Assembly: GCA_003226295.1 (NCBI GenBank)
Contig: CP029803.1
Span: forward strand, 2,299,001-2,363,000
Length of the DNA: 64,000 bases
DNA from: Candidatus Moanabacter tarae
GTDB lineage: Bacteria; Verrucomicrobiota; Verrucomicrobiia; Opitutales; UBA2987
Direction of reading: 5' to 3'
A program made the position numbers and the translations under genes. A model generated the notes under the pieces. That model did not search any database. It worked only from the letters and a program-made list of their open reading frames with translations, and had not been told where the DNA came from. Below, one piece after another: positions 5,796 to 32,775 of the stretch (its first letter is position 1; the number at the start of each line of letters is the position of its first letter).

Positions 5796-8700
5796 ATGAC
5801 AAATACTTCTACGCGAAAGGTTCTTCTTCTGGGAAGCTCTGCTTTGAAGATTGGCGAAGCAGGCGAATTCGACTATTCGGGTAGCCAGGCCATCAAAGCT
5901 CTGAAGGAGGAGAAGATCGAGACCGTCCTGGTCAATCCCAATATCGCAACTATTCAAACTTCCGAACATCTAGCGGATCGGGTCTATTTCCTCCCCGTTA
6001 CACCCTATTTTGTCGAAAAGGTTATTGAAAAGGAGAAACCAGATGGCGTCCTTCTAGGCTTCGGTGGACAGACTGCGTTAAACTGTGGTATCGGTCTCGA
6101 GGACAGAGGTGTGTTTGAGAAGCATGGCGTCCAAATTCTGGGAACCCCCGTTCAAACGGTACGTGAGACTGAAGACCGCGGCCTTTTCAAGGATCGGCTT
6201 AACGAAATTGGGGTTTCACTTCCTCAAAGTGCAGCTGTCCATTCGGTAGAAGAAGCCCTGCATGCTGCCTCCAAAATTGGATATCCAGTAATGTTACGAA
6301 TTGCCTATGCGCTGGGAGGACTGGGCTCCGGTATGTGCTTTGACGAAGCGGAATTGAAGCAGAGGGCATCCGCAGCGTTTTCTCATGCTTCGCAAGTATT
6401 GATCGAAGAGTGGCTGCAAGGTTGGAAGGAAATCGAATACGAAGTAGTGAGGGATCAGTACAATAATTGTGTTACGATTTGTAACATGGAAAATTTTGAT
6501 CCGATGGGGATCCATACCGGAGAATCGATTGTCGTAGCTCCTAGCCAAACCCTTACTAATCACGAGTACCATAAGCTCCGCGAAGTTTCCATTAAAGTGA
6601 TTCGCCATCTTGGGGTGGTGGGCGAATGCAATATTCAATTTGCTTTCAGCCCAAAGTCCGACGAATACCGCATTATTGAAGTGAATGCCCGACTTTCCCG
6701 GAGTTCGGCTTTGGCCTCTAAGGCGACGGGTTATCCCTTAGCTTTTGTGGCGGCTAAATTATCGCTTGGATATCCTCTCAGTGATCTTGGGAACAAGGTG
6801 ACAGGTATTACTAGTGCCTGCTTTGAGCCGGCTCTCGACTACATTGTAGTCAAAGTTCCAAGGTGGGACCTTAAGAAGTTTCGAATGGTTTCGACCCGAA
6901 TCGGATCGGGTATGAAGTCAGTAGGGGAGGTAATGGGTATTGGGCGAACCTTTGAGGAAGCTTTTCAGAAGGCCCTTCGTATGCTCGATGTAGGTGCGCT
7001 TGGAGTGATGCCTGGAAAGGGAGTGGAATTTAATGATCTAGAACTCGAACTCCGTGAACCAACCGATCGTAGGGCCTTTGCATTGGCAAGTGCTTTTGAG
7101 ATGGGCATGACGGTTGAGGAAACCCAAAGGCTCACCGGAATCGATAGCTGGTTTCTCGAGAGAGTAAAGCGAATCACAGTTCTCGGGGCAAAAATACGGG
7201 AGCAAAAAGGGCGAGAATTGAATGCTGAGTTCTTGCTGGAACTGAAAAAATCGGGATTTTGTGACCGGCAAATTGCGGATTTTAGCGGCCACAGCGTTGA
7301 GGGGGTGAGGAAAGCACGCCTCGCTGCCGGCATTCGACCTTACATAAAGCAGATAGATACCCTCGCGGCCGAATACCCAGCCGTTACAAATTATCTCTAC
7401 CTCACTTACCATGGGTCTGAGGATGATGTTGATTTCAATTCAGAGAATTCCGTTCTCGTGCTCGGCTGCGGGGCTTATCGAATCGGCAGTTCGGTTGAAT
7501 TCGATTGGTGCTGTGTGAATACCGTAAAGACCTTAAGGGATTTGGGATATCCAACCATCATGCTTAATTGCAATCCGGAAACGGTGAGCACCGATTACGA
7601 TGAATGTGATCGGCTCTACTTTGACGAGATCACTCTAGAGACGGTGAGGGAAATTTATGACCGAGAGAAAGTCCATGGAGTGGTTGTTTCGGTAGGTGGG
7701 CAGACTCCTAATACCCTTGCGCCCCAATTCAAAAAATGCGGCATTCGTATTCTCGGGACTTCACCTGATAACATTGATGCGGCGGAAGACCGACATAAAT
7801 TCTCCACGCTGTGTGATCATCTAGGTGTCGAACAACCTCCATGGAGCGAAGTTCCTTCTATTGAGGAAGCAGAGAGATTTGCTAGAGAAGTCGGGTATCC
7901 AGTTCTCGTCCGACCTAGCTATGTTCTTTCTGGTGCGGCGATGGCTGTTGCGGAGAATAATGAAAGTCTACGCGAAGTCCTTCATCGGGCTGCCGATGTT
8001 TCACCGGAGCATCCACTTGTGGTTTCGAAATTTATCACCGGAGCAAAGGAGATCGAAATTGATGCTGTAGCTAGCGATGGAATGATCCAGGTCTACGCGA
8101 TGAGCGAGCATGTGGAAAATGCTGGAGTTCATTCTGGCGACGCAACTCTTGTCCTCCCTCCGCAGCGCACCTACGTAGAGACGACTCGCCGGGCCCGACA
8201 GATTGCGGCGCAAGTAGCCAAAGCTTTGAGTATTAATGGGCCCTTTAATATTCAGTACATTGCGACGGATAATCATGTTATGGTTATTGAGTGTAACCTT
8301 CGGGCTTCTCGTTCTTTTCCTTTCGCGTCCAAGATATTAAAAGTGAACCTGATCGACCTGGCTACCCGCATCCTCATGAACCGGCCGATTCCCACCGTCG
8401 AAGCTTCTGTATTCGAATTAGACTATGTCGGCGTGAAGGCGCCGCAATTTTCCTTCACCCGCCTGGAAGGAGCTGATCCCATTCTAGGGGTGGAGATGGC
8501 TTCCACTGGTGAGGTGGGTTGCATTGGCAGCGATTTCGACGATGCTTTTCTTAAGTCGGTTATTTCTGTCGGGTACAATTTGCCCATAAAAAGCATTCTC
8601 CTGAGCACTGGCACAATTGAAACAAAGGCTTCTTTTCTAAAAAGTTCGAGGAAGCTTTGGGAAAGCGGTGTACAGTTTTACGCCACGCCTGGCACGGCGC

Positions 8701-11778: not shown

Positions 11779-14328
11779 TTACGGGCCCTTAGCCGGACAG
11801 GCTCCTAGCCCTACTAGCGGAATCCCAGTCGACTCCGCCGTCGTTAGAGTGATAGAACGAAGATCCTCAGGTTCCAGGTTATGCAAATTAGTTTTACCGG
11901 TACAGCGGGCCATCATAGAAGCCTCACCGGTGCTAGCATCAAGAATGCATTGAACTGCCTTAGTCCTCTCCTCACGGCTTCGGTCAGTAGTGAATTCCAC
12001 CCCGTTCTCTCTTGTAATTTGACCTCCGAGGGCGAGTGCCACTGAGAGCTCAAATACGACTGCGGTGGCCCCGAGAGCAATCAACTTTGCTGCGTCGGTG
12101 CCTGACCGTACTCCCCCAAAATAGACCAGATCGATAGCTTCTTCGCTGTTGAGCTTGCGCAGTATTCGAATAGCATCGCGAAGGATCTCCAGATGCGGCG
12201 CCCCGCCTAGTTCTGGCCACCTTTGACCTAGCCCAGGGGCGCCGTCTAATAGCAGCATGTCAAATCCTTTGTCCAGGGCGAATGAGAGCGCATATTCCAG
12301 TGATGCCCTGGATGATACCGCCAGGCCTAGAATCTGGTTGGAATGGAGTCGAATTGGGTCCACGGACTGAAAGGGTTCTTCAACTTTGTGTATCTGTGCC
12401 GCGGCCTGGGCGGAAGGGACGCCGTGTCCGCCTGAGTCCAGAACTTGACACCAAGGTACGGAATTCCCAATCGGTTTTACACCGATGTAACTACATTGGT
12501 TTCTCGCCAGGGCTGAGGCTAGTGCCTCGCGTATTTCCTCAGGCGCATAATCGAAACCTGATACAAGGAAAGGTTGTGTCAGAGGCAATTTACTTGAAAT
12601 TGTGGTTTCTATTGAACAATTTTCACGATAAGGATCAATCACCAGCCGGGAAAGATTAGCCGGAAGGAAAACAAGATCATCAATAGTTGCTTCGCGCCCC
12701 TCTGGGAAAGGGTTGTCTCGCATTTTCAGCCTGCTGTTAATCATCACTTTTTGCTTGAGATGTTCCTCGGAGCCAGCGCGAGCCATGGAAAAAATATCCT
12801 CACGATGTTGGATAGAATAGTCTGACGAACCGGTTTCGGCATCGCATCGGTAACATCGAGCAGCTTCCTTACGTGCCGTTTCCCAATTATAGGTTGACTC
12901 GATCTCAGGAAATTCGACCGGCTTCTTGCCGAGACCGAAGAACTCAGGTTCCTGTTGCGGTAGAACTTCCCACCTAAGGTCTTGAGCTACAGGTACCCGT
13001 CGGGTGCGGTAAGGTGTGCGGTAGGGCAATGGATCGGATCGGTTTTCGAGGAATGCATTGATATAGTATGCTGCTTTCTGGCCGTGATGCATAGCCATGA
13101 CGATGGTAGACCCGCCAAAGGCTCCGTCTCCCGCGGCAAAGACTTTTGGGTCGGAGGTACGCATATTGCTGAAATCAGCACGCACACGATCGGGCAACAT
13201 CATACCCAGTTTATTCAGTTCTGCACACTCCGCTTGTTGTCCTACGGCTGCAATGACCATACCACATCGAATGGTGTGTTCGCTTCCGGAAATCTTGACC
13301 GGGTGTCGTCGACCGTCTTCATCACATTTTCCCAACTTTGTTTTTACACAATGTAGGATGATTTCGTGTCTATTGCGTTCAACTCGGACCTGGAGAGTAT
13401 GGTAGATAAATTCAACACCTTCTTCGATAGCGCCCTCTAACTCAATACGTCGGGCCGGTATTTCCTTGGGGCCCCGCCGGTAGATGACCTTAACATTTTT
13501 GCAGCCAGGTAAGCGTTTAGCTACTCTACAGGCATCCATGGCGACATCACCACCGCCGATTACGATAACCGTCTCAGGAAGATGCGGCCGTTCTCCATCA
13601 TTCACTTTACGGAGAAAGCCTACCCCGTCCACTACCCCAGCAGCTTGCTCTCCAGGAGTTTGCATTTGCTTTCCCCACCAAGCGCCGATTGCGAGTAGTA
13701 CCGCATCATGATTGTGTTTGAGCTCGGTAAGACTGGTATCCTTTCCTAGGCTTCTATTGAGATGTACCTTCAAGCCCGGGCAACGTGTCGTTAAACGGTC
13801 GATGTCTTCCTTAATGACATCGGGAGGACAGCGGAATGCGGGAATACCCCAGACCATTAGGCCGCCCAAGCGATCAGTCATTTCATAAACATGTACCTCG
13901 TAGCCCATCTCGCAGAGATCGTGGGCGGCTGTCAGCCCGGTAGGACCGCCACCGACAATTCCGATTGTTTTTTTTCTGGTCACCGGAATTGAAGGTGGAT
14001 CGTAATTGTGTCCCACCTTGTCCATCACGAAACGCTTAAGATTACGAATCATGATAGGACCGTCACTTGCAGTACGTCGACAGGCCGGTTCGCAAGGAGC
14101 GTCGCAAACCCTTCCGCATATGGAACTAAACGGATTAGTAGCGGTGATAGCCTCAAAGGCTTCCTGGAATTTCCCTTCCCAAATATAGGCGAGATAGGAA
14201 GGGGCATCAGTTCCAACAGGGCATGCTACTTGGCAGGGGGCGGGGACGAAATGACGGTCATCTGTATCGTCCTTAAATTCCGGGGGTGCCGGAGGCACAC
14301 TGATCCGATTAATATCGTAGACGCTCAT
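11779..14328 (-). CDS. GltD-type Fe-S/FAD oxidoreductase fused to a glutamate-synthase FMN-domain-like region
   Basis: Residues 1 to about 480 match the glutamate synthase small subunit. They hold an N-terminal Fe-S domain with cysteines at 32, 36, 71, 75, 79 and 83, an FAD site IGIVGGGPTGLTAA (about 122-135), a second dinucleotide site VIVIGGGDVAMDACR and a C-terminal FAD motif VFAAGDGAFGGSTIV. It should take electrons from NAD(P)H. Residues from about 530 to 849 add a second domain resembling the FMN barrel of the large subunit (LLLDGAPGLG, YFGGVRSGTDAAKLIALGA, ending in GKTNLHNLEPEDLRS). This copy lacks the clustered Fe-S cysteines of a working synthase domain, so it may be structural or regulatory. 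Usual GltD is about 450-480 residues. The start overlaps the upstream gene by 4 bp. Confidence 0.85.
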   Translation of the reverse strand: MSVYDINRISVPPAPPEFKDDTDDRHFVPAPCQVACPVGTDAPSYLAYIWEGKFQEAFEAITATNPFSSICGRVCDAPCEPACRRTASDGPIMIRNLKRFVMDKVGHNYDPPSIPVTRKKTIGIVGGGPTGLTAAHDLCEMGYEVHVYEMTDRLGGLMVWGIPAFRCPPDVIKEDIDRLTTRCPGLKVHLNRSLGKDTSLTELKHNHDAVLLAIGAWWGKQMQTPGEQAAGVVDGVGFLRKVNDGERPHLPETVIVIGGGDVAMDACRVAKRLPGCKNVKVIYRRGPKEIPARRIELEGAIEEGVEFIYHTLQVRVERNRHEIILHCVKTKLGKCDEDGRRHPVKISGSEHTIRCGMVIAAVGQQAECAELNKLGMMLPDRVRADFSNMRTSDPKVFAAGDGAFGGSTIVMAMHHGQKAAYYINAFLENRSDPLPYRTPYRTRRVPVAQDLRWEVLPQQEPEFFGLGKKPVEFPEIESTYNWETARKEAARCYRCDAETGSSDYSIQHREDIFSMARAGSEEHLKQKVMINSRLKMRDNPFPEGREATIDDLVFLPANLSRLVIDPYRENCSIETTISSKLPLTQPFLVSGFDYAPEEIREALASALARNQCSYIGVKPIGNSVPWCQVLDSGGHGVPSAQAAAQIHKVEEPFQSVDPIRLHSNQILGLAVSSRASLEYALSFALDKGFDMLLLDGAPGLGQRWPELGGAPHLEILRDAIRILRKLNSEEAIDLVYFGGVRSGTDAAKLIALGATAVVFELSVALALGGQITRENGVEFTTDRSREERTKAVQCILDASTGEASMMARCTGKTNLHNLEPEDLRSITLTTAESTGIPLVGLGACPAKGP

Positions 14329-16286
14329 CCTGCTTTCATTTCAAGCTCACTAGAGACACGATCCCTGTAGCCTGGTTCGTAAGGAAGGCGGGTGATTGTT
14401 GCTGCCTCCGGAGTTAATGCGACCAAATCTTCCCGGCAGAGCTCATGAACACTGGTGTAACCAAGACCCTGGGTGATCGCTGCAATTTGCCAACGAACGC
14501 TCTCCAAGAAACGATGGATATTCTGTGCCTCCACAGAAGGGTTGTAGCGGGTTTCATGTTTGGGGTCCTGGGTGGCGATACCAGTTACGCACTGGCCAAC
14601 ATGACATTGCATGCAAGCGATGCAACCACCGGCTATGATGACCGCAGATCCAAAAGCCACAGCATTAGATCCCAAACACAGTGACTTGACGGCGTCAATC
14701 CCGTCACGCAGTCCGCCCATCAAAACGATTTCTATGTCTTTGCGGCGATCAATTTCATCGAGTGCGTCGAGTGCTTCCATGATGGCTGCGAGGGTCGGGA
14801 TTCCAACATGATCAATGACTTCTGAGCTGCCTGCTCCTGTTGAGCCCTGCATTCCGTCCAGCTCGATGAAGTCGAAACCATCCTTTACTGCGATTTTTAT
14901 GTCGTCGCTGACGCGTCCGGCACCGAGCTTGACGCCTACGGGTAGTTGATATCCAGTGGCCTCGCGAAACTCCTCGACCTTAATAACTAAATCATCAGCT
15001 CCTAAGATATCAGGATGACGCGATGGAGAACGCAGGTCGATTCCTTGGGGAATACCGCGAATGGTAGCAAGTTCCTTGGTAACTTTCTTGGCCATGAGCT
15101 GACCTCCAAGGCCAGGCTTAGCTCCCTGAGAGATGTAGATCTCAAGAGCGTCAGCACGTTTCATATCGTGTATGTTCCAGCCTAAGCGTCCCCCCAAACA
15201 CTGGAAAATAAGCTGCTTAGCAGCGCTCCGCTGGGCGTCGCTCATGCCTCCTTCTCCCGTATTTTCCGCGATATCAGACATAGCCGAGGCCATCGCTACA
15301 GCATGTTTTGTGGAACGGCTTAAGGCACCGTAACTCATTGGTGCGATCATTACGGGCATACTGAGCTGGAGCGGATTAGCCCCATTGATGCCTCCGATTT
15401 CGGTGTACATCTTTACCTTAGAGAGGACGTCAGGATCTGATCCTGCCCGAGACAGGTCTTGTTTAAAAGCCAGGTCTTCCAAATGGGGAAGGGTGCGAGC
15501 ACCGCCGTAGCCACGGATGCGATAGCGCCCAATCTGAGATTTGATCTGAATATCCTCTTGCACCTTATCGTTCCAGTAATCGGAGGTGCCTGAGAAAGTG
15601 GAAAACGGAATGCTTCGCATCTGCTGTTCGCTGGTTTCATAACGTAACTTCTTTCCAGCGTTTATGATTTTCCTGAAAGGTCCTTTAGCCGAAATTCTGT
15701 ACCGGGCTAGAAATTCCATGAGCGAATCTATGTCCTGCCTGGAAGCATCAACAAGCATCGCATCGGATCCGAGCGATTGTATTTCACCGCCAACATAGAT
15801 TTCTCCGCCGGTCATATCTTCACCGACTCGTTCGCCCGAGTCACCTACGATGATGATTCGGCCGCCATACATCATGTAACCAGCCATGAAGTTGGCGTTG
15901 CGGCCGCAACAGAGTGTCCCTGCCTTCATTACTTGCCCGGCGCGCGAGCCAATGTTTCCACGGACTACTATTTCGGCCCCGCGAATTGCTACCCCAGCAA
16001 TGGCGCCGGCATTACCACCTACCACAACCGAACCGCGGTACATGTTGTCAGCTAATCCCCATCCGGCATTATGGGCGATTTCAAAATGAGGTCCGTCAGT
16101 TAGTCCAGCGCAAAAGTAGCCAGCTGATCCTTTGATCCTGACGTTAATTTTCTCGGTTAGGCCGACACCTAAATGATGACGCGCATCTGGGTTTAGAATT
16201 TCAATATCCTCACCGTTACTGCCGTGCTTTCGGATGACTTCGTTGGCCGCCCGGACCGTGGTCTTAGCTAGGTCGATAGAGCCCAT
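14325..16286 (-). CDS. glutamate synthase-type protein with GXGXG domain followed by FMN/Fe-S synthase domain
   Basis: Two large-subunit domains in reverse of the usual GltB order. Residues about 40-200 form the beta-helix GXGXG domain (repeats such as GGNAGAIAGVAIRGAEIVVRG and GRIIIVGDSGERVGEDM). Residues about 270-620 form the FMN/2-oxoglutarate domain: NTGEGGMSDAQR, KPGLGGQLMAKKV, ELDGMQGSTGAGSSEV, MGGLRDGIDAVKSL. A 3Fe-4S-like cysteine set is present in CIACMQCHVGQCVTGIATQ (about 555-575). The separate GXGXG and FMN subunits recall GlxC/GlxD or MgsB/MgsC, here fused. It overlaps the amidotransferase gene by 19 bp and the next gene by 4 bp, so the three products very likely form one complex. 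With a GltD partner, glutamate synthesis is the likeliest activity; another amide or amine acceptor reaction is possible. Confidence 0.87.
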   Translation of the reverse strand: MGSIDLAKTTVRAANEVIRKHGSNGEDIEILNPDARHHLGVGLTEKINVRIKGSAGYFCAGLTDGPHFEIAHNAGWGLADNMYRGSVVVGGNAGAIAGVAIRGAEIVVRGNIGSRAGQVMKAGTLCCGRNANFMAGYMMYGGRIIIVGDSGERVGEDMTGGEIYVGGEIQSLGSDAMLVDASRQDIDSLMEFLARYRISAKGPFRKIINAGKKLRYETSEQQMRSIPFSTFSGTSDYWNDKVQEDIQIKSQIGRYRIRGYGGARTLPHLEDLAFKQDLSRAGSDPDVLSKVKMYTEIGGINGANPLQLSMPVMIAPMSYGALSRSTKHAVAMASAMSDIAENTGEGGMSDAQRSAAKQLIFQCLGGRLGWNIHDMKRADALEIYISQGAKPGLGGQLMAKKVTKELATIRGIPQGIDLRSPSRHPDILGADDLVIKVEEFREATGYQLPVGVKLGAGRVSDDIKIAVKDGFDFIELDGMQGSTGAGSSEVIDHVGIPTLAAIMEALDALDEIDRRKDIEIVLMGGLRDGIDAVKSLCLGSNAVAFGSAVIIAGGCIACMQCHVGQCVTGIATQDPKHETRYNPSVEAQNIHRFLESVRWQIAAITQGLGYTSVHELCREDLVALTPEAATITRLPYEPGYRDRVSSELEMKAG

Positions 16287-25719: not shown

Positions 25720-26244
25720 GTGATTTGGGCTAATGATCTTTTGGATGGATATATGCCTGGTGGAAATGATGGAGCGGAAAAAGGGAAAACCGCCTCCGTC
25801 TACGTTTCATTTATTCAAGGCGGAAGCTTAAAGTCAGCTGCGTTCTATTGGGATGATGCGGAAGAGGCCGGCCTTTTTGATGAGCACGTATATGACCTTT
25901 TAGACACCATTGAAGGAACTCCAAAGAAGATGCCGGGAAGGGTAGCGGATGGTATTTCTTGCTCAACCTGCGGATTCACTTTAGAAGCCCTTGAAGAGCA
26001 AGGCCGCTTGGGTTGTCCGCAATGTTACAAAACATTTGGGTGCATAATTCTGCCTCTCTTAAGAAAATTGCATTCAGGGATTGAACATATGGGAAAACTC
26101 CCGCGAAAGGCACAGGTTGATCAAGTTGTGAATGAGCGAATTCTTGGCCTCAAGTTCCGAATGGAGACAGCGGTTTCCATGGAACGATATGAGGAAGCAG
26201 CTCGATTCCGAGATGAGATAAGGGAGATCAAGGAACGGCTTTAA
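25720..26244 (+). CDS. McsA-like UVR-motif protein with one zinc-ribbon pair
   Basis: Resembles McsA/UvrB-UvrC-motif proteins, which partner protein-arginine kinases or metal-stress responses. The middle has a zinc-binding pair set, CSTCGF...GCPQCYKTF (residues about 87-110), followed by LLRKLHSGIEHMGKLP. A UVR motif closes it (LKFRMETAVSMERYEEAARFRDEIREIKERL). Homologues usually carry an earlier pair, one of whose halves has the form LCxxCA; here that position reads AAFYWDDAEEAG, with both cysteines gone. The start is a GTG at 25720 with GAAGG upstream. An overlapping 37-codon frame precedes it. Function is not assigned beyond the family resemblance. Confidence 0.75.
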   Translation: MIWANDLLDGYMPGGNDGAEKGKTASVYVSFIQGGSLKSAAFYWDDAEEAGLFDEHVYDLLDTIEGTPKKMPGRVADGISCSTCGFTLEALEEQGRLGCPQCYKTFGCIILPLLRKLHSGIEHMGKLPRKAQVDQVVNERILGLKFRMETAVSMERYEEAARFRDEIREIKERL

Positions 26245-26338: not shown

Positions 26339-27589
26339 CTAGAAAACCACATCGACACGGAGTCCAAAAATGAACGCATCATTTTCACCTTCCAGAGGAT
26401 CAAATATCACTTGGAGGTCGGGTTTCAAAATGATGTTTTGGGTGATCGGAATTTGATAGGTGATTTCGAGAATGCGTTCGGTTTTGGTGGATGAATCGCG
26501 GGCGGCAGCTTTAGGAATAAGAAAGGTGTCTCCGAATCGAGTTATAGAAAAAGCAATGCCAAAGATATCAGAGTCCCTGCCAGGGAACATTCCATTGTAA
26601 GTCAGCCCAAAATCATTGTAGAACCTGACAGTGTTGTGGTCCTCGCTGGGGCTGTACCCGATTCTGAAAAAAGAACCAAGCCTTTGATCAGGATCTGACT
26701 CTGTAAAAAGGGTCTGATCTGCGGAAAAGTAGATCGAGGAATTTCCTTCGACAGTAAGTCCGGTACCAAGGTTTTCGAAATCTCCGGTATGATAAAAGCC
26801 GCCGAATTTATAGCTTCCAGGTAAGCTGTGTATGTGGGCCTCAACACCGTATTCAAGAAAAATCACATACCCTCGATCTCCACCTAAGCTGAATTCGAGA
26901 CCGTTATCGTTAATTATTTCATCACCGGCGTCGCCACTGTAAACAGCTAATTGAAAGTAACTACTATCGGTGGGACTAACTTTTGTCCATATGCCTGGAG
27001 CACCCAAAGGGTAAATAGGGGCACTGATGTTACCGGACTCGGTTGGTAATGGACCAAAGGCACTGTTAAGAAAAAGCCCGGCGTTTTCGGAGACCATAAA
27101 ATCATCATCAAGTGCGATGTTGCCAATCCGAATTGCTATGGTTCCTTCGAGCCACTCTTTCTGTAGCCACGCCTGAAAGAGCCGCACGGTATTGAAGGCT
27201 GCGATGTTGCTTAAGACATTAAAGTCGCCCACTAGATCCGTACTAGGGTCGCCCCCAAAAATAGCCAGTGCACCCAAGTGCATGTGAGTACCATCCCATC
27301 CTCTAATCTCCTCAAAATCGAGATCAATGCCAAAGTCGAACAAACCCAACCCTGTGGATCCGGTCTCATTTCCCCCTTCTAGATTGGCCACGATTTCTGC
27401 AGTCAATAATCCGTAGGGACGAACTCCAGAGAAATGAATCGATTTCAGCCCCGTTGTTTTGCTGAAAACCACACTTTGGGTATTAACATCTTCTTCGGTA
27501 TTGGCTGAACAGGGCCCTGAATAGACAATTATAAGGATCCCTAACAATAGCCATCTAACCGTAATTCCGTAGTGTGATAGGATTTCCAT
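26339..27589 (-). CDS. OprB-family carbohydrate-selective-type porin
   Basis: Outer-membrane beta barrel of the OprB family. Preferred start is the ATG at 27589, giving the signal peptide MEILSHYGITVRWLLLG...SGPCSA; a TTG start at 27643 would add 18 residues. The mature part has alternating strands and characteristic segments WLQKEWLEGTIAIRIGN, YPLGAPGIWTKVSP and the C-terminal ILEITYQIPITQNIILKPDLQVIFDPL, ending in the aromatic-terminated VDVVF expected for barrel assembly. It is the last gene of the minus-strand cluster beginning with the MntR-like regulator, about 77 bp after phnE. The family name reflects glucose porins; the solute here is not implied. Confidence 0.85.
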   Translation of the reverse strand: MEILSHYGITVRWLLLGILIIVYSGPCSANTEEDVNTQSVVFSKTTGLKSIHFSGVRPYGLLTAEIVANLEGGNETGSTGLGLFDFGIDLDFEEIRGWDGTHMHLGALAIFGGDPSTDLVGDFNVLSNIAAFNTVRLFQAWLQKEWLEGTIAIRIGNIALDDDFMVSENAGLFLNSAFGPLPTESGNISAPIYPLGAPGIWTKVSPTDSSYFQLAVYSGDAGDEIINDNGLEFSLGGDRGYVIFLEYGVEAHIHSLPGSYKFGGFYHTGDFENLGTGLTVEGNSSIYFSADQTLFTESDPDQRLGSFFRIGYSPSEDHNTVRFYNDFGLTYNGMFPGRDSDIFGIAFSITRFGDTFLIPKAAARDSSTKTERILEITYQIPITQNIILKPDLQVIFDPLEGENDAFIFGLRVDVVF

Positions 27590-27666
27590 GAACCGGATTG
27601 GATGCCCAAAAAACATTGGAAGATATGTAAGGAAAATACTCAATTAACGTAACAATTAAGGGAGTA

Positions 27667-28446
27667 TCAGCGAACCCATCGACGGACCCAGTAAGTGAGT
27701 TGGTCGAGGAGACTTACTATCAGGACTATGATAAGCAGAAGGACGGCGACTTTCTCGTATTGGAATCCGCGCACGTAGAGTTGGATGTAATAGCCAATTC
27801 CCCCGGCGCCCACCAGTCCAAGAACAGCGGCATCGCGGAAATTCATTTCGAATCGAAAGACGGTGAAGGTGATAACTTGTGGAAGGCATTGAGGAATTAG
27901 CCCGAATCGGAGAATCTGAGGCCAGGAAGCTCCGGTCCCTTTGACCGCATTAATGATTCCACGATCGGCAGTCTCGAATTCCTCCGCATAAAATTTTGCC
28001 AGCATACCTGTGGAGTGAAAGGCAATCGCCAACGCACCCGGGAATGGACCCAAGCCAACTGCAGCAACGAAAAGAAGTGCGACGATAATCAAGGGAATTG
28101 ATCGCATTATTCCACATAGTAAGCGGACTGGCTGCGCGATCCAAGGAGGCGTGACGTTAACAGCAGCAAGGAATCCCAGGGGCAGAGATATTAAGACCGC
28201 AATAGTTGTACCAGCCAATGTTATCATCAAGGTTTCCGCGGTCGACTTTATGACCAGATGGGCAACGCTCCAATCGGGAGGGGCGAGCCGAGTGAAGAAT
28301 TCAGCGAAGCGAGGACCGGACTGAAAGAGAATTTGTGGGCTGAATTCGGACCAGATCATTGACCAGACAATTAGAGTGCCAGCGACGATGATAACTGCCG
28401 TTCTGACTAAACTTTGCTGAAGCCATCTTTTTCTCAGAGGATGCAT
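27667..28446 (-). CDS. phnE: PhnE-type ABC transporter permease
   Basis: Inner-membrane permease of the phosphonate/phosphite-type importer family. About six hydrophobic helices are visible, starting with TAVIIVAGTLIVWSMIW. The binding-protein-dependent permease loop (GTGASWPQILRFGLIPQCLPQVITF) contacts the ATPase, and FEMNFRDAAVLGLVGAGGIGYYIQLYVRGFQY is typical of PhnE. It follows phnC after 63 bp and precedes the OprB gene. No carbon-phosphorus lyase gene is present in the window. Confidence 0.9.
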   Translation of the reverse strand: MHPLRKRWLQQSLVRTAVIIVAGTLIVWSMIWSEFSPQILFQSGPRFAEFFTRLAPPDWSVAHLVIKSTAETLMITLAGTTIAVLISLPLGFLAAVNVTPPWIAQPVRLLCGIMRSIPLIIVALLFVAAVGLGPFPGALAIAFHSTGMLAKFYAEEFETADRGIINAVKGTGASWPQILRFGLIPQCLPQVITFTVFRFEMNFRDAAVLGLVGAGGIGYYIQLYVRGFQYEKVAVLLLIIVLIVSLLDQLTYWVRRWVR

Positions 28447-28509
28447 CCGATTGCGGACCTAGGTCTCATATTTGCTGGCCAATGCAGAGAAGCTAAGTAG
28501 TCCCACTTT

Positions 28510-29283
28510 CTAGTCAATTCCCTTTGTCTGGTAGAGGAAGGCCGCCTCTGCCGTTGTAAAATCCTTGGGTGGCCCATCATAGACGATCCTTCCTTCGGAG
28601 AGTCCAATTATACGGTCGGCAAACCTACGCGCTAGGGATGGTTGGTGCAAATTGACGACCAATGTAACGCCGCGCCTTTGAACGCATTCGTTAAGAAGCC
28701 CAAGGGCATCTTCTGCCAGTTCCGGATCAAGATTTGAGACAGGTTCGTCAGCTAAGATGATCTCCGATTCCTGCATAAGGGCACGCGCGATGGCGGTACG
28801 TTGTCGCTGTCCTCCGCTCAGGGTGTCGATCTTTCGGTCACTTAGTTGGATGAGTTCCACCTCTCGAAGTATAGCTTCCGCCCTCAACAGCTCCTCTTCA
28901 GGGTAACAGCCGATGATACTTTTCCAGGAAGGAACCCGGCCAAGACAGCCGGTCAGAACGTTAGCGATAACGCTCATTCGAGGCACAAGGAAAAATTCCT
29001 GATCAATTATGGCGATACGACGACCCATTCCTAATTCTGGATTGTCATCAGGTGTCGCAGGATCCACACCAAGAACTTTAACCGAACCCGCCGATGGTTT
29101 TGTTCTCCCCTTGATCAAGCAAGCCAGAGTGGTTTTACCCGAACCGCTTCTACCCAAAACAAAAATACGCTCTCCCCTATTGACCCGGAGTATTTCGACA
29201 TCGAGGGCGCGATGGTTCCCGAAAAGAACGTGTAAGTTGGAGATCTCGATCAGTGGAAAGAGCTGATCACTTGATGAATCCAT
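28510..29283 (-). CDS. phnC: PhnC-type ABC transporter ATP-binding protein
   Basis: ATPase of the PhnCDE importer. Walker A is VLGRSGSGKTTLACL, the Q-loop region IIDQEFFLVPRMSVIANVLTG, the signature LSGGQRQRTAIARALMQ, Walker B IILADEPVSNLDP, and the His switch VVNLHQPSLARRFADRI; the NLHQ form is common in PhnC. The gene overlaps the end of phnD by 17 bp, indicating coupled translation. Family assignment is firm; whether it moves phosphonate is not. Confidence 0.92.
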   Translation of the reverse strand: MDSSSDQLFPLIEISNLHVLFGNHRALDVEILRVNRGERIFVLGRSGSGKTTLACLIKGRTKPSAGSVKVLGVDPATPDDNPELGMGRRIAIIDQEFFLVPRMSVIANVLTGCLGRVPSWKSIIGCYPEEELLRAEAILREVELIQLSDRKIDTLSGGQRQRTAIARALMQESEIILADEPVSNLDPELAEDALGLLNECVQRRGVTLVVNLHQPSLARRFADRIIGLSEGRIVYDGPPKDFTTAEAAFLYQTKGID

Positions 29284-30142
29284 AGGCTCTCGCTATTTCT
29301 GCAACCCCGGCATAATTGTCGTGTGTTACTTCGATGTAACCGTCGACACCGTAAAGATAGCTCAATAGATGGTGGTTTGGCCCTTCCTTGTTCAGCGCCA
29401 GCAATGCTTTTTTTAGCTTGTTGATAATTGTTACTTCGAGCCCCTTTCTAGCCACCAGGCAATGGGAGGGGATGGGCCTCGATTCAGCCAACAAGGCAAC
29501 AGAATCTCGCTCCTCCGGCCGCAATAGATGGTAGGCGAATTGACCTGCTCCAGCAGCGTCTACAAAACGGTTATAGACAGCTCGAATTGCCTGTTCGTCG
29601 CCACCCGCAAAATAAATCTTTCCAAAGTAATCTTCTGGTCTCCCAGTAGCTAACCCAGCTTGTCTGAATATGTCCAGGGGGTACATGAAGCCAGACGAAG
29701 AGATGGGATCAACAAAGGCAATGTTCTTCCCTCTAAGGTCTTCGAGCTTGTTAAATCCGCTGTCCTTACGGACGAATATTCGCGAAACGTATGTAGATTT
29801 CCCGTTGTAGATTTCGCCGAGGAGCGGAACCGCACCAGTTTGTTGGTGTGCCATGATATATTGGAGTGGCCCCATAAAGCCGACATCGGCGGTCTGGTTT
29901 CTGAGTGCCTCCACTACTCCCGAGTAGTCCGTAGCGACAAAGTCCTTGACCAAGATCTGGAGCTCTCGCTCGAGATATTCTATAACTGGGGTTACTTCTT
30001 CGATGAGTTGGTCGGGATTCTCGTAGGCGATGAACACGATTTTCAATTCTGGGCCAGAATTACCAAAAAGGGAGTTACCCCAAGACAATAAGACAGGCAG
30101 GAAAAGGAAGCAGATAAGACTTGAGGTCAAGAAACGGGGCAC
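29267..30142 (-). CDS. phnD: PhnD-type periplasmic binding protein
   Basis: Solute-binding protein of the phosphate/phosphite/phosphonate family. A signal peptide is present (LTSSLICFLFLPVLLSWGNSLF). Typical segments are LKIVFIAYENPDQL, ADVGFMGPLQYIMAHQ, YVSRIFVRKDSGFNKLEDLRGKNIAFVDPISSSGFMYPLDIF and YNRFVDAAGAG. The FVDPxSxSG loop usually contacts the anionic ligand. It starts 12 bp after the dihaem cytochrome gene and overlaps phnC. PhnD-family proteins also bind other oxyanions, so the ligand is open; the MntR-like regulator upstream argues for a metal-linked role. Confidence 0.9.
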   Translation of the reverse strand: MPRFLTSSLICFLFLPVLLSWGNSLFGNSGPELKIVFIAYENPDQLIEEVTPVIEYLERELQILVKDFVATDYSGVVEALRNQTADVGFMGPLQYIMAHQQTGAVPLLGEIYNGKSTYVSRIFVRKDSGFNKLEDLRGKNIAFVDPISSSGFMYPLDIFRQAGLATGRPEDYFGKIYFAGGDEQAIRAVYNRFVDAAGAGQFAYHLLRPEERDSVALLAESRPIPSHCLVARKGLEVTIINKLKKALLALNKEGPNHHLLSYLYGVDGYIEVTHDNYAGVAEIARAYGFIK

Positions 30143-30154
30143 AGTGTATTTCTC

Positions 30155-32056
30155 CTAGTTAAGATATTCGGCATATTCTTCGTAGAGCGCGCGATATTCC
30201 TCCACTATTTGGTCTACTTGGTCGCGGTTCATCTTTAGATTTGCGGCGAATGCTTCTTCCATCAGGCTGGCCATCCTATTTAATATCTGAATGTAGCTAT
30301 GATCCTGAAGGTCCCACTTGTGGGCATTAATCTCTTGGATGATGGTCTGGAAGGTGATTCCTATCAGTTCAAACTTTCCGATCTTTTTTAAATAATCATA
30401 GGTAGATAGGAAGAATTTAAATTCTTCGAGTTCGGATTCTAGCGTGTGAATCGTTGCCTCGTAGGCATCGATTCCGTCGCCCACCGTCATCACATAGGTT
30501 GTCAAATCTCCTATATCTTTTTCAGAGAGGCCGAGTTCAAAGTTCGTATCGAACCATAGATTTACGGAGCGAATATCCGGTTGGCTACCATCGTGGAAAT
30601 ATGGCGCACTGTAATTAATGCCTAGGAGAGTAGGGGTATCCAATGCTCGATCCCGCGAGTTTTTCCCACTTCCGGCAACGGTCCCAATGTCATGTCTCTT
30701 GTGATCAATAAAGTTCGCGCTCGGGATGTGGCAGGTAGCACAACTCATCCCCCCCATTTGTGTAAACGGACGGTTGAATATGGCCTCGCCTCGTTTTGCA
30801 GCTGGAGAAGCATCTTCGCTGAGGGCGCCGCTGGGTGTTATTTTCGGATTGGAGAGAAAGTCAAACTCGAGCATATAGGCAATAATACCATCCATCAGGA
30901 CGGGATCAGGCTCGGGTCCATTAAACTCATTTACAATTACGTTGCGGACGAACTCGCGGAGTGAATCGAAGCGTCCGTTGCGTCCGTAAGGTGCAGTAAA
31001 ACGTATACCGCGAAGGTCGGGAATGTCCAACGCATCAAAGTGGCCATTATTAGCGTGAGGCGCGAAAAAATTGTTGGAAACATCCATTCCGCCTGGGCTT
31101 GAGGAAAGGCCTGGGATGAAAAATTTTGGATTGGTGATACTCTTGTTGTGACAAGTGTTGCAAGAGATCTGAAGAGAGCGGGCTGGCTCGCCAAAAATAT
31201 AGGGACTGTCGAATCCCATGTCCCCTAGTGCGATAAGTACGGTCTCACTTTCGTCCACTCCTCGCTCGGCCATGTTTAGGATTTGGCGAGGCCGGGGAAG
31301 TTGTTTGTTTGTTTGGCTGCCTGGGGGCAGTTTTACCGGGACGACTGCATCATCTTCAAAGGTGGGACTTGCCCACGGGACTGGTGAAAGCAAACTGAGA
31401 TTAAGGGGTATGTAATCCTCCCTATAGTTTTCTTCCACATACTTCTTCACTATCACTGCTGCTTTGGTAAATGCTGCGACATCGGGGACTCTTTCTTCGG
31501 AAACGAATAGGCCGTATCTACCCATCGCACTTGCCATTTCCAACCATGCCTGCCCTAGTCTTCTGAAAGAATCCTGATCAGAGTATTTTACCTCATGTTC
31601 GAAACTGGCCCAGAGCTGGCGGGCCCGCTTCAATACTGCGGTTGCCTTTCGATAATCATTGAGACTAGCCATTGCCTCCTCAAGAGAATCACTAAGGAGA
31701 AAAGCCATCCCTTCCGTTACCGCGCAGAAAATTTCTTGCCTCACTTCTGTGCGCTCTTCCAGCGATAGCTTATCGGTCCGGTCTGAAAACGTCAAACTCT
31801 GGATCCGTTTATTCAGCCACTCACCCATTTCTCCATTCACAGTTTCGACTTCGCCTACAATTACAGCCGTATCCGACCGAACTAGCTCCCAAGGAACCGG
31901 ATTGAGATTAAGAGTGAAAAGTAACCTTCGGTAACTCTCTACAGGAGGCAGAAATGTCTCTGCCGGGACAATGTGTCCGTGCACCAAACTCCCTTTTGTG
32001 AGAATTGAAAGAAGAATTCCTAAGAGAACAAGTATGCGGATTTTTTTGGCTGTCAC
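30155..32056 (-). CDS. dihaem cytochrome c peroxidase-like (MauG/CcpA-type) protein with N- and C-terminal extensions
   Basis: Exported protein with two c-type haem sites, SCNTCHNK (about residue 302) and SCATCHIP (about 440), in a CcpA/MauG-like core (FFAPHANNGHFDALDIPDLRGIRFTAPYGRNGRFDSL; DTPTLLGINYSAPYFHDGS). A signal peptide precedes GHIVPAETFLPP. About 250 residues of mostly helical sequence before the core and a helical tail of about 100 residues after it are not part of standard dihaem peroxidases and were not recognised. The start is GTG. It is the first gene after the MntR-like regulator and lies 12 bp before phnD. It could oxidise a metal or substrate in the periplasm; that is inference. 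Confidence 0.82.
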   Translation of the reverse strand: MTAKKIRILVLLGILLSILTKGSLVHGHIVPAETFLPPVESYRRLLFTLNLNPVPWELVRSDTAVIVGEVETVNGEMGEWLNKRIQSLTFSDRTDKLSLEERTEVRQEIFCAVTEGMAFLLSDSLEEAMASLNDYRKATAVLKRARQLWASFEHEVKYSDQDSFRRLGQAWLEMASAMGRYGLFVSEERVPDVAAFTKAAVIVKKYVEENYREDYIPLNLSLLSPVPWASPTFEDDAVVPVKLPPGSQTNKQLPRPRQILNMAERGVDESETVLIALGDMGFDSPYIFGEPARSLQISCNTCHNKSITNPKFFIPGLSSSPGGMDVSNNFFAPHANNGHFDALDIPDLRGIRFTAPYGRNGRFDSLREFVRNVIVNEFNGPEPDPVLMDGIIAYMLEFDFLSNPKITPSGALSEDASPAAKRGEAIFNRPFTQMGGMSCATCHIPSANFIDHKRHDIGTVAGSGKNSRDRALDTPTLLGINYSAPYFHDGSQPDIRSVNLWFDTNFELGLSEKDIGDLTTYVMTVGDGIDAYEATIHTLESELEEFKFFLSTYDYLKKIGKFELIGITFQTIIQEINAHKWDLQDHSYIQILNRMASLMEEAFAANLKMNRDQVDQIVEEYRALYEEYAEYLN

Positions 32057-32100
32057 TTCCAGTCCCTCTACAAATCTTTCATTTACCCTATGGTTGTATA

Positions 32101-32126
32101 ATTAGCCAATATACAAAATTATAGTA
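32101..32126 (-). promoter_or_regulatory. candidate operator shared with the mntR-like promoter (copy 1)
   Basis: On the minus strand this 26-bp site begins TACTA and ends GGCTAAT. It matches the site at 32671-32696 at 19 of 26 positions without gaps. It lies 45 bp ahead of the GTG start of the dihaem cytochrome gene, and the other copy lies 44 bp ahead of the mntR-like start. A TATAAT is embedded (minus strand), so repressor and polymerase could compete. Binding by the MntR-like protein is inferred. Confidence 0.55.
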
Positions 32127-32189
32127 TATGCTACATTTATTGCCGATCTACTCCACTCCTATGGAAAACGTCAAGGTAAAACAAGTGGG

Positions 32190-32627
32190 TTAGCTCCGGG
32201 TCTTAATAAACTTCCGCATGGCTGTCAAAGTTGCAGGCGAAGCGTGATGCTCGATACCCTCCGCGTCGAGTTCCGCAATTTTTCTAGGAACCCCAATTTT
32301 TAATAGAAAGCGCGCGACAACATGGTGTCTTTCGCGGCTCAGGGTTGCTAATTTTCTTCCTTTATGGGTGAGAAAAATAGAACGATAGGGTTGAGAGTTA
32401 ACTAGGCCAGCATCTTTAAGACGCACGATTGTTTTCGATACCGTTACGTGAGAGACACCCAAATGTCGGGCCAGATCAACAGCTCGAGCTTCTCCGTTCT
32501 GTTGGATTAGATCGTCAATCAGTTCGACATAGTCTTCAGCCAGTTCGTGTTGGTTTCGACTGCGCGAATTTGCGTAGGCGTTTGATAACGAGCGGGGCTG
32601 GGATTGGGTAACTCTCTTCTTTTGCAC
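32190..32627 (-). CDS. mntR: MntR-like manganese-responsive transcriptional regulator (DtxR family)
   Basis: Winged-helix metalloregulator closely resembling E. coli MntR. ELAEDYVELIDDLIQQNGEARAVDLARHLGVSHVTVSKTIVRLKDAGL is the DNA-binding domain, and SRERHHVVARFLLKIGV...DAEGIEHHASPATL contains the metal-binding Glu/His residues of the dimerisation domain. As in E. coli MntR there is a basic N-terminal leader and no SH3 domain. The start is GTG at 32627, with no ATG available upstream of the domain. With Mn(II) bound it would repress Mn-uptake genes. No mntH is in the window; the next genes on the same strand are the dihaem-PhnDCE-OprB cluster, 133 bp downstream. Confidence 0.9.
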   Translation of the reverse strand: MQKKRVTQSQPRSLSNAYANSRSRNQHELAEDYVELIDDLIQQNGEARAVDLARHLGVSHVTVSKTIVRLKDAGLVNSQPYRSIFLTHKGRKLATLSRERHHVVARFLLKIGVPRKIAELDAEGIEHHASPATLTAMRKFIKTRS

Positions 32628-32670
32628 AGATATGAATTTGTGGGTACGATGAATTGCTTGCTAACATAAT

Positions 32671-32696
32671 ATTAGCTCATATCTAGAATATTAGTA
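32671..32696 (-). promoter_or_regulatory. candidate autoregulatory operator upstream of mntR-like gene (copy 2)
   Basis: Second copy of the 26-bp element (minus strand, begins TACTAATATT and ends GAGCTAAT), 44 bp ahead of the mntR-like GTG. The adjoining bases add a short perfect dyad GCTAA-N7-TTAGC (plus strand 32660-32676). Together with copy 1 this suggests one regulator acts on both promoters. Confidence 0.5.
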
Positions 32697-32775
32697 CCGC
32701 CTAAGAAATTTAAACAAGTTTAAAATCAGTTGAGGGTCATTAAAGCCAATCGCTGTGATTGTGGAGGCATTGAGT

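Follow-up and report, generated by a model that had tools for sequence, protein, structure and literature searches.

A conserved dihaem-phnDCE gene unit with recurrent MntR-type regulators: a candidate metal-controlled uptake system

What does an ABC importer of the phosphonate type (PhnDCE) carry when its genes stand behind a manganese-type repressor and a dihaem enzyme? This question is raised by a six-gene cluster of Candidatus Moanabacter tarae, located in a stretch of 64,000 nucleotides (contig CP029803.1, positions 2,299,001 to 2,363,000; here called the window) that is part of a single-contig, 98% complete genome of 2.63 Mb (G000). A preliminary description of this DNA had read the cluster as a metal-controlled uptake system. 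We argue here that the cluster is best explained as a conserved uptake system under metal control that has not been described before. The in silico evidence supports metal uptake well; manganese over iron as the cargo, the role of the dihaem enzyme, and the route across the outer membrane are our inferences.

The six genes (mntR, dihaem, phnD, phnC, phnE, and oprB) are all found where they had been described, head-to-tail on the minus strand, and could be assigned to families by Pfam and NCBIfam. Among 141 genomes of the same class, the dihaem protein occurs only in G000 and G096, and it is thus rare in the class. A scan of genome contigs yielded 38 further loci in 38 more genomes, belonging to at least seven phyla: Acidobacteriota, Planctomycetota, Nitrospinota, Hydrogenedentota, Verrucomicrobiota, Sumerlaeota, and Bdellovibrionota (Oligoflexia). 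The order dihaem, phnD, phnC, phnE is kept in nearly all loci of sufficient length; two loci (L039 and L040) encode divergent dihaem proteins without phnDCE, and there the N-terminal motif is altered too. Dihaem-phnD-phnC-phnE is a conserved unit, far beyond chance, in tens of genomes. In a PhnD tree built by a quick method, the unit-linked proteins form one branch (support 94), and the window protein clusters with those of Bdellovibrionota, Acidobacteriota, and Hydrogenedentota, not with the verrucomicrobial proteins of L019/L027 and L005. This placement apart from its verrucomicrobial counterparts suggests that the unit has spread horizontally. The preliminary description had proposed a survey of the neighbourhoods in relatives, which brought out both the conserved unit and a repeated association with DtxR/MntR regulators, in differing arrangements, at 12 loci. 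No paper connecting these components (MntR, PhnD, a diheme protein, and an ABC importer) was found in a literature search.

The regulator gene of the window (mntR; 32190..32627, minus strand) encodes a manganese-type DtxR-family protein of 145 amino acids (aa), and its earlier reading as a close MntR match holds (NCBIfam MntR model NF008273, 190 bits against a cut-off of 153). The metal ligands Asp32, Glu35, His101, Glu123, Glu126, and His127 correspond to D8, E11, H77, E99, E102, and H103 of BsMntR, and no other DtxR-family (PF02742) protein is encoded in this genome. Over all 40 loci, a DtxR-family gene adjoins the unit in 12, where chance would give 0.11-0.15 (from 62 PF02742 matches in 181 Mb, with related loci not being independent). 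The regulator lies upstream and co-directional in the window, L014, L022, and L041, upstream on the opposite strand in L010, L017, L018, L020, L027, and L042, and downstream in L015 and L035. Because two regulator subtypes and three arrangements are found, these data argue for repeated recruitment of DtxR-family regulators to the unit. Iron-type members of the family are marked by the ligands Met10/Cys102 and manganese-type members by Asp8/Glu99 (PMC4805248). Both manganese-type residues are present in 10 of the 12 adjacent regulators, the exceptions being L027 (Asn8/Glu99) and L015 (Gln/Cys). MntR models were the nearest for the regulators tested against NCBIfam, with those of the window, L010, and L022 scoring above the equivalog cut-offs. 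Two neighbours of such regulators may be mentioned. In L015, from a metagenome-assembled genome (MAG) of Hydrogenedentota, a gene for an R2lox-like protein (R2-like ligand-binding oxidase; 13828-14655) adjoins cluster and regulator; R2lox is an oxidase with a Mn/Fe cofactor. In L010, from an Oligoflexia MAG, feoB (6285-8381) and the mntR next to the cluster converge and are 6 bp apart.

Several Acidobacteriota and Nitrospinota loci carry near-perfect, operator-like palindromes ahead of the dihaem open reading frame, at a distance of no more than about 100 nt. One type, TTTTTGAGTACTCAAAAA, is found in four Acidobacteriota (L007, L011, L021, and L023), with related forms in L018 and L035, both of which have a long-type MntR adjacent; another, TTTAGACATGTCTAAA, is found in seven genomes of the Nitrospinota group (L028, L029, L030, L032, L034, L036, and L038). 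With up to two mismatches allowed, and for genome sizes reaching 10.7 Mb, each palindrome is single-copy genome-wide and lies upstream of the dihaem gene, except in G166, whose single match is located elsewhere; reversed controls for both types gave counts near zero. A wider regulon was rejected, as one copy per genome yields no further members. The candidate operator of the window, TTTAAACTTGTTTAAA (32709..32724, minus strand, upstream of mntR), is similar to TTTAGACATGTCTAAA and, as an exact match, occurs only once in the genome. Its AT-rich near-matches are equally frequent in the reversed control, which makes it a weaker, tentative candidate compared with the palindromes of the relatives. 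For the window, the claim of a firm MntR operator was rejected: palindromes in the vicinity of mntR are rich in AT and do not stand out clearly from chance.

In L005, the unit is directly continued by mntH (NF001923, 651 bits) and a Usp gene after phnE, and L027 shows the same order. The earlier remark that MntH and MntABC are missing near the window cluster extends to the entire genome, in which no canonical MntH/Nramp and no ZnuA/MntC-type (PF01297) binding protein was found. Its Nramp-family matches, the best of which scores 78 bits, were rejected as MntH, as none was recovered by phmmer against MntH and no DPGN/MPH was shown. Nramp proteins with the DPGN/MPH metal motifs occur in 4 of the 39 genomes, among those checked, and high-scoring Nramp (>385 bits) in 40 of the 85 same-class genomes searched. 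An mntH gene on a separate contig of G147 was considered as a missing operon end and rejected for its TolC/ArsR-like context. Nramp-family proteins with GPGT/VPYN replacing DPGN/MPHN at the metal-site helices were seen in Acidobacteriota and Planctomycetota (L051, L052, L053, L057, L058, and L062).

Phosphonate use finds little echo in these genomes. The C-P lyase gene, earlier noted as missing beside the cluster, is missing throughout: PhnJ was found in 0 of 39 genomes (E. coli control positive), in a search that left phosphonatase and phosphite dehydrogenase outside its scope. The preliminary description would have given way to units standing without mntR and next to phosphonate genes. In some loci no mntR adjoins the unit, but phosphonate genes beside the unit were seen in none of the neighbourhoods of the relatives.

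The substrate-binding protein, encoded by the phnD-like gene (29267..30142, minus strand), belongs to the PhnD family by PF12974 (2e-63), TIGR01098, and fold. Foldseek matches of its model (pLDDT 90.6) are the PhnD family, among them PtxB, PhnD, ArrX, and GpxB, then one sterol-transport protein, and then transferrin. In the structures of PtxB, the ligand residues are Y55, Y100, S130, T131, S132, and H160, with Y208 as a cap (PMC5700983). An alignment to PtxB maps these positions to Tyr73, Tyr118, Ser148-150, Asp182, and His227 (window numbering), the two tyrosines lying within a gap-free block and the other residues beyond it. All 33 aligned cluster PhnD proteins share Tyr73, Tyr118, Asp182, and His227, as well as Glu110, and in all of them the PtxB ligand His160 is exchanged for Asp182 and the capping Tyr208 for His227. 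The oxyanion motif of S-T-S plus His is absent from the set, its His being Asp in 33/33. Ten proteins (group B: Planctomycetota, Verrucomicrobiota, one Nitrospinota single-amplified genome, and L005) additionally have Asp-Met instead of Ser148-Ser149, thus D-M-S for S-T-S. Asp182 is missing from every unlinked or solved homologue whose alignment covers this position. His227 alone was rejected as a marker of the system because a sister group linked to iron has it as well; what sets the system apart is Asp182. Asp, Tyr, Tyr, and His are the ligand set of transferrin. Judged from the alignment, the pocket looks rebuilt from oxyanion to metal-like (transferrin-type) ligands.

The sister group just mentioned comprises the closest unlinked PhnDCE systems (pocket Tyr182 and His227), which adjoin genes for TonB receptors, ExbB/ExbD, FeoB, and ferritin. 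Because of these neighbours, the wider PhnDCE branch looks metal-linked, and the sister group is apparently an iron-linked branch of 'phosphonate' transporters. TonB-dependent receptors and ExbB/ExbD are encoded at L105 (4665-9257), L106 (1-2473), and L107 (3397-8029), with FeoB and ferritin in L105. M. tarae itself has a second phnDCE set (L046, 6101-8559; about 2572100-2574559 of the genome) near a HupE/UreJ-like gene; it falls in this sister branch of the tree, and its pocket residues are Ser-Thr-Ser, Tyr, and His.

The dihaem gene (30155..32056, minus strand) encodes a predicted periplasmic protein of 633 aa with the haem motifs CNTCH (299-303) and CATCH (439-443). Both c-type motifs lie within a Pfam CCP_MauG domain, placing the protein in the MauG/di-haem cytochrome c peroxidase (CCP) family; the domain matched in 28 of 28 members scanned, profile matches comprise hydrazine synthase gamma, CCP, and MauG, and Foldseek returned di-haem peroxidases first. 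In an AlphaFold model of limited confidence (pLDDT 72), helical N (about 37-211) and C (about 538-632) domains surround the haem part. An EfeO/M75 identity of these helical domains was considered; the fold matches are weak, and Pfam and profile searches gave nothing. In 36 of 38 dihaem proteins a histidine comes right after the likely end of the signal peptide (A/G/S, as in A|HIVPPE), and for the window protein the predicted mature N-terminus is His28 (VHG|HIVPAE). The mature protein is hence predicted to start with histidine. By analogy with EfeUOB, the dihaem protein may have a redox role in metal handling; alternatively, it could modify the binding protein in the manner of MbnH/CorB-type enzymes.

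The remaining genes complete the importer and add an outer-membrane channel. The phnC-like ATPase gene (28510..29283, minus strand; PF00005) has ABC_phnC as its best NCBIfam model, under the equivalog cut-off of that model, and the phnE-like permease gene (27667..28446, minus strand) scores 274.7 bits with TIGR01097 (cut-off 216.7). The close junctions around phnD reported earlier are confirmed: 12 bp separate it from the dihaem gene and it overlaps phnC by 17 bp. The other gaps are 133 bp (mntR-dihaem), 63 bp (phnC-phnE), and 23 bp (phnE-oprB). The last gene (26339..27643, minus strand) encodes an OprB-family porin (PF04966, 1.7e-61), probably the outer-membrane component in the window. The porin had been counted as part of the system; it is indeed present, but it is not a fixed part, as OprB beside the unit is specific to the window and relatives have another beta-barrel (Phenol_MetA_deg-like, in at least 10 other loci) or none. 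Precedents for manganese passage through the outer membrane are MnoP and OmpU; the parts of the same review consulted name NRAMP, PsaBCA-type, and ZIP as manganese importers and no PhnD-type one (PMC9334652). Outside the cluster, uvrC precedes mntR in the same orientation. On the other side, a gene at 25720-26244, convergent with the porin gene, encodes a small protein that by eye looks McsA-like, having CxxC pairs and, at its C-terminus, a UVR-like stretch.

How might these parts work together? The metal would cross the outer membrane via OprB (or the other beta-barrel in relatives) and be held in the periplasm by the PhnD-like protein through Asp182, His227, Tyr73, and Tyr118. In the subgroup of the window, an anion might also be bound at the retained helix end of Ser148-150, comparable to the Fe(III)-carbonate of transferrin. 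The dihaem protein, with its MauG/CCP-type haem pair, would shift the redox state of the metal before or during loading, or mature the binding protein, thereby taking the role of EfeB/EfeO in EfeUOB. PhnE-PhnC would then import the metal, and Mn-loaded MntR in the cytosol would repress the operon. We consider a transition-metal system of some kind likely, and give the MntR-repressed manganese importer with this mechanism a probability of roughly 0.55. The metal-controlled system of the preliminary description is thus supported by the regulators, mntH operons, palindromes, pocket, and lack of PhnJ. Its weaker points are the choice of manganese over iron, which is only probable, and the porin, which adjoins the unit in the window alone. 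Only tentatively do we propose a redox-coupled importer of a hitherto unknown kind, in which the dihaem protein, its conserved mature N-terminal His perhaps binding metal, converts manganese, e.g., Mn(III), and passes it to a PhnD-family protein converged on the ligand set of transferrin. Together with the iron-linked sister PhnDCE systems, it would turn an entire branch of 'phosphonate' transporters into a metal-uptake family distributed among many uncultured phyla.

Several points weigh against the manganese reading. The pocket was placed by sequence alignment and not from coordinates, and part of the Foldseek closeness to transferrin is owed to the type-II fold in general. Because this resemblance is general, the weight rests on the pocket substitutions. 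Group A, including the window protein, retains the Ser-rich anion site Ser148-150, and an oxyanion or a metal-anion complex is a possible cargo for it. In about two-thirds of the loci, some of them truncated, no regulator adjoins the unit, and DtxR-family sensors can answer Fe(II) too. The resemblance of the helical dihaem domains to EfeO/EfeM is weak (probability 0.75-0.85, E 0.55-0.84), and a ZnuA-family protein, possibly MntC, is present in 24 of the 39 genomes.

The main rival to manganese is iron, bound as Fe(III) by PhnD in a transferrin/FbpA-like Asp-Tyr-Tyr-His site, with the dihaem protein as ferri-reductase or ferroxidase and the repressor sensing iron or both metals. It is favoured by the transferrin ligand set and Foldseek neighbour, the iron genes around the sister systems, FeoB next to the L010 regulator, a TonB receptor and PepSY near L021, and the faint EfeO/EfeM similarity. 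We nevertheless hold it to be rather unlikely, because the regulators have D8/E99 and reach their best scores with MntR models, the operon continues with mntH and not with a dedicated iron gene in L005 and L027, and the M. tarae genome has no other known manganese importer. Less probable still is the import of an oxyanion or phosphonate (phosphite, phosphonate, phosphate, or a related anion), with MntR control reflecting cross-talk between metal and phosphorus. The family names PhnD, PhnC, and PhnE and the group A residues Ser148-150, Tyr73, and Tyr118 would suit such a cargo, but the exchanges of His160 and the capping Tyr in all members, the loss of S-T-S in group B, and the missing PhnJ do not, and neither the dihaem partner nor the operonic mntH would have an evident reason. 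Just as improbable, in our view, is a metal-organic complex (a small metallophore or an organic Mn(III)/Fe(III) complex) from which the dihaem protein frees the metal by reduction. Reductive release would fit a redox partner, an outer-membrane barrel is often present, and the PhnD family accommodates larger ligands (GpxB, PhnD); however, no TonB-dependent receptor is a conserved part, and no metallophore synthesis genes were recognised beside the unit.

The proposed manganese importer shares features with several known systems and differs from each. Like MntH (NRAMP) and MntABC/PsaBCA/SitABCD, it has a manganese-type DtxR repressor beside an importer, with mntH even following the unit in L005 and L027. 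The MntABC-type binding protein, however, belongs to ZnuA/TroA (PF01297, cluster A-I), whereas PhnD here is of PF12974, and the window cluster adds a dihaem enzyme and an outer-membrane barrel in a genome with neither importer type. With PhnCDE/PtxABC/HtxBCDE it shares ABC family, fold, gene set, and two ligand tyrosines; it differs in His to Asp, cap Tyr to His, the S-T-S lost in a subgroup, the lack of C-P lyase, the metal regulator, and the dihaem partner. EfeUOB/M, an iron uptake system of haem peroxidase, M75 metal-binding protein, and permease, likewise pairs a periplasmic haem enzyme with metal capture, and EfeO/EfeM are weak Foldseek matches of the helical domains, but it uses a DyP-type EfeB and an Ftr1-type EfeU in place of the c-type di-haem MauG/CCP protein and the BPD_transp_1/PhnE ABC permease, and no M75 sequence match is found here. 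Transferrin and FbpA resemble the PhnD-like protein in the type-II bilobal fold, with Asp, Tyr, Tyr, and His (transferrin) and, for group A, an anion site at a helix N-terminus; they are of another family, group B has Asp and Met at those positions, and metal binding by PhnD here is predicted. The dihaem protein, finally, has the two CXXCH haems and CCP/MauG fold of MauG, MbnH, and di-haem CCP, but the domain order is reversed in the sequence match to MauG, and the protein is flanked by unique helical domains and linked to an ABC importer.

Some bacteria, M. tarae included, have no recognisable manganese importers. We know of no redox enzyme established in bacterial manganese acquisition; if the proposed manganese importer is true, one would be added. 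Genes annotated for phosphonate uptake would then serve metal uptake in at least seven phyla, and inferences on phosphorus and metal cycles drawn from metagenomes would change.

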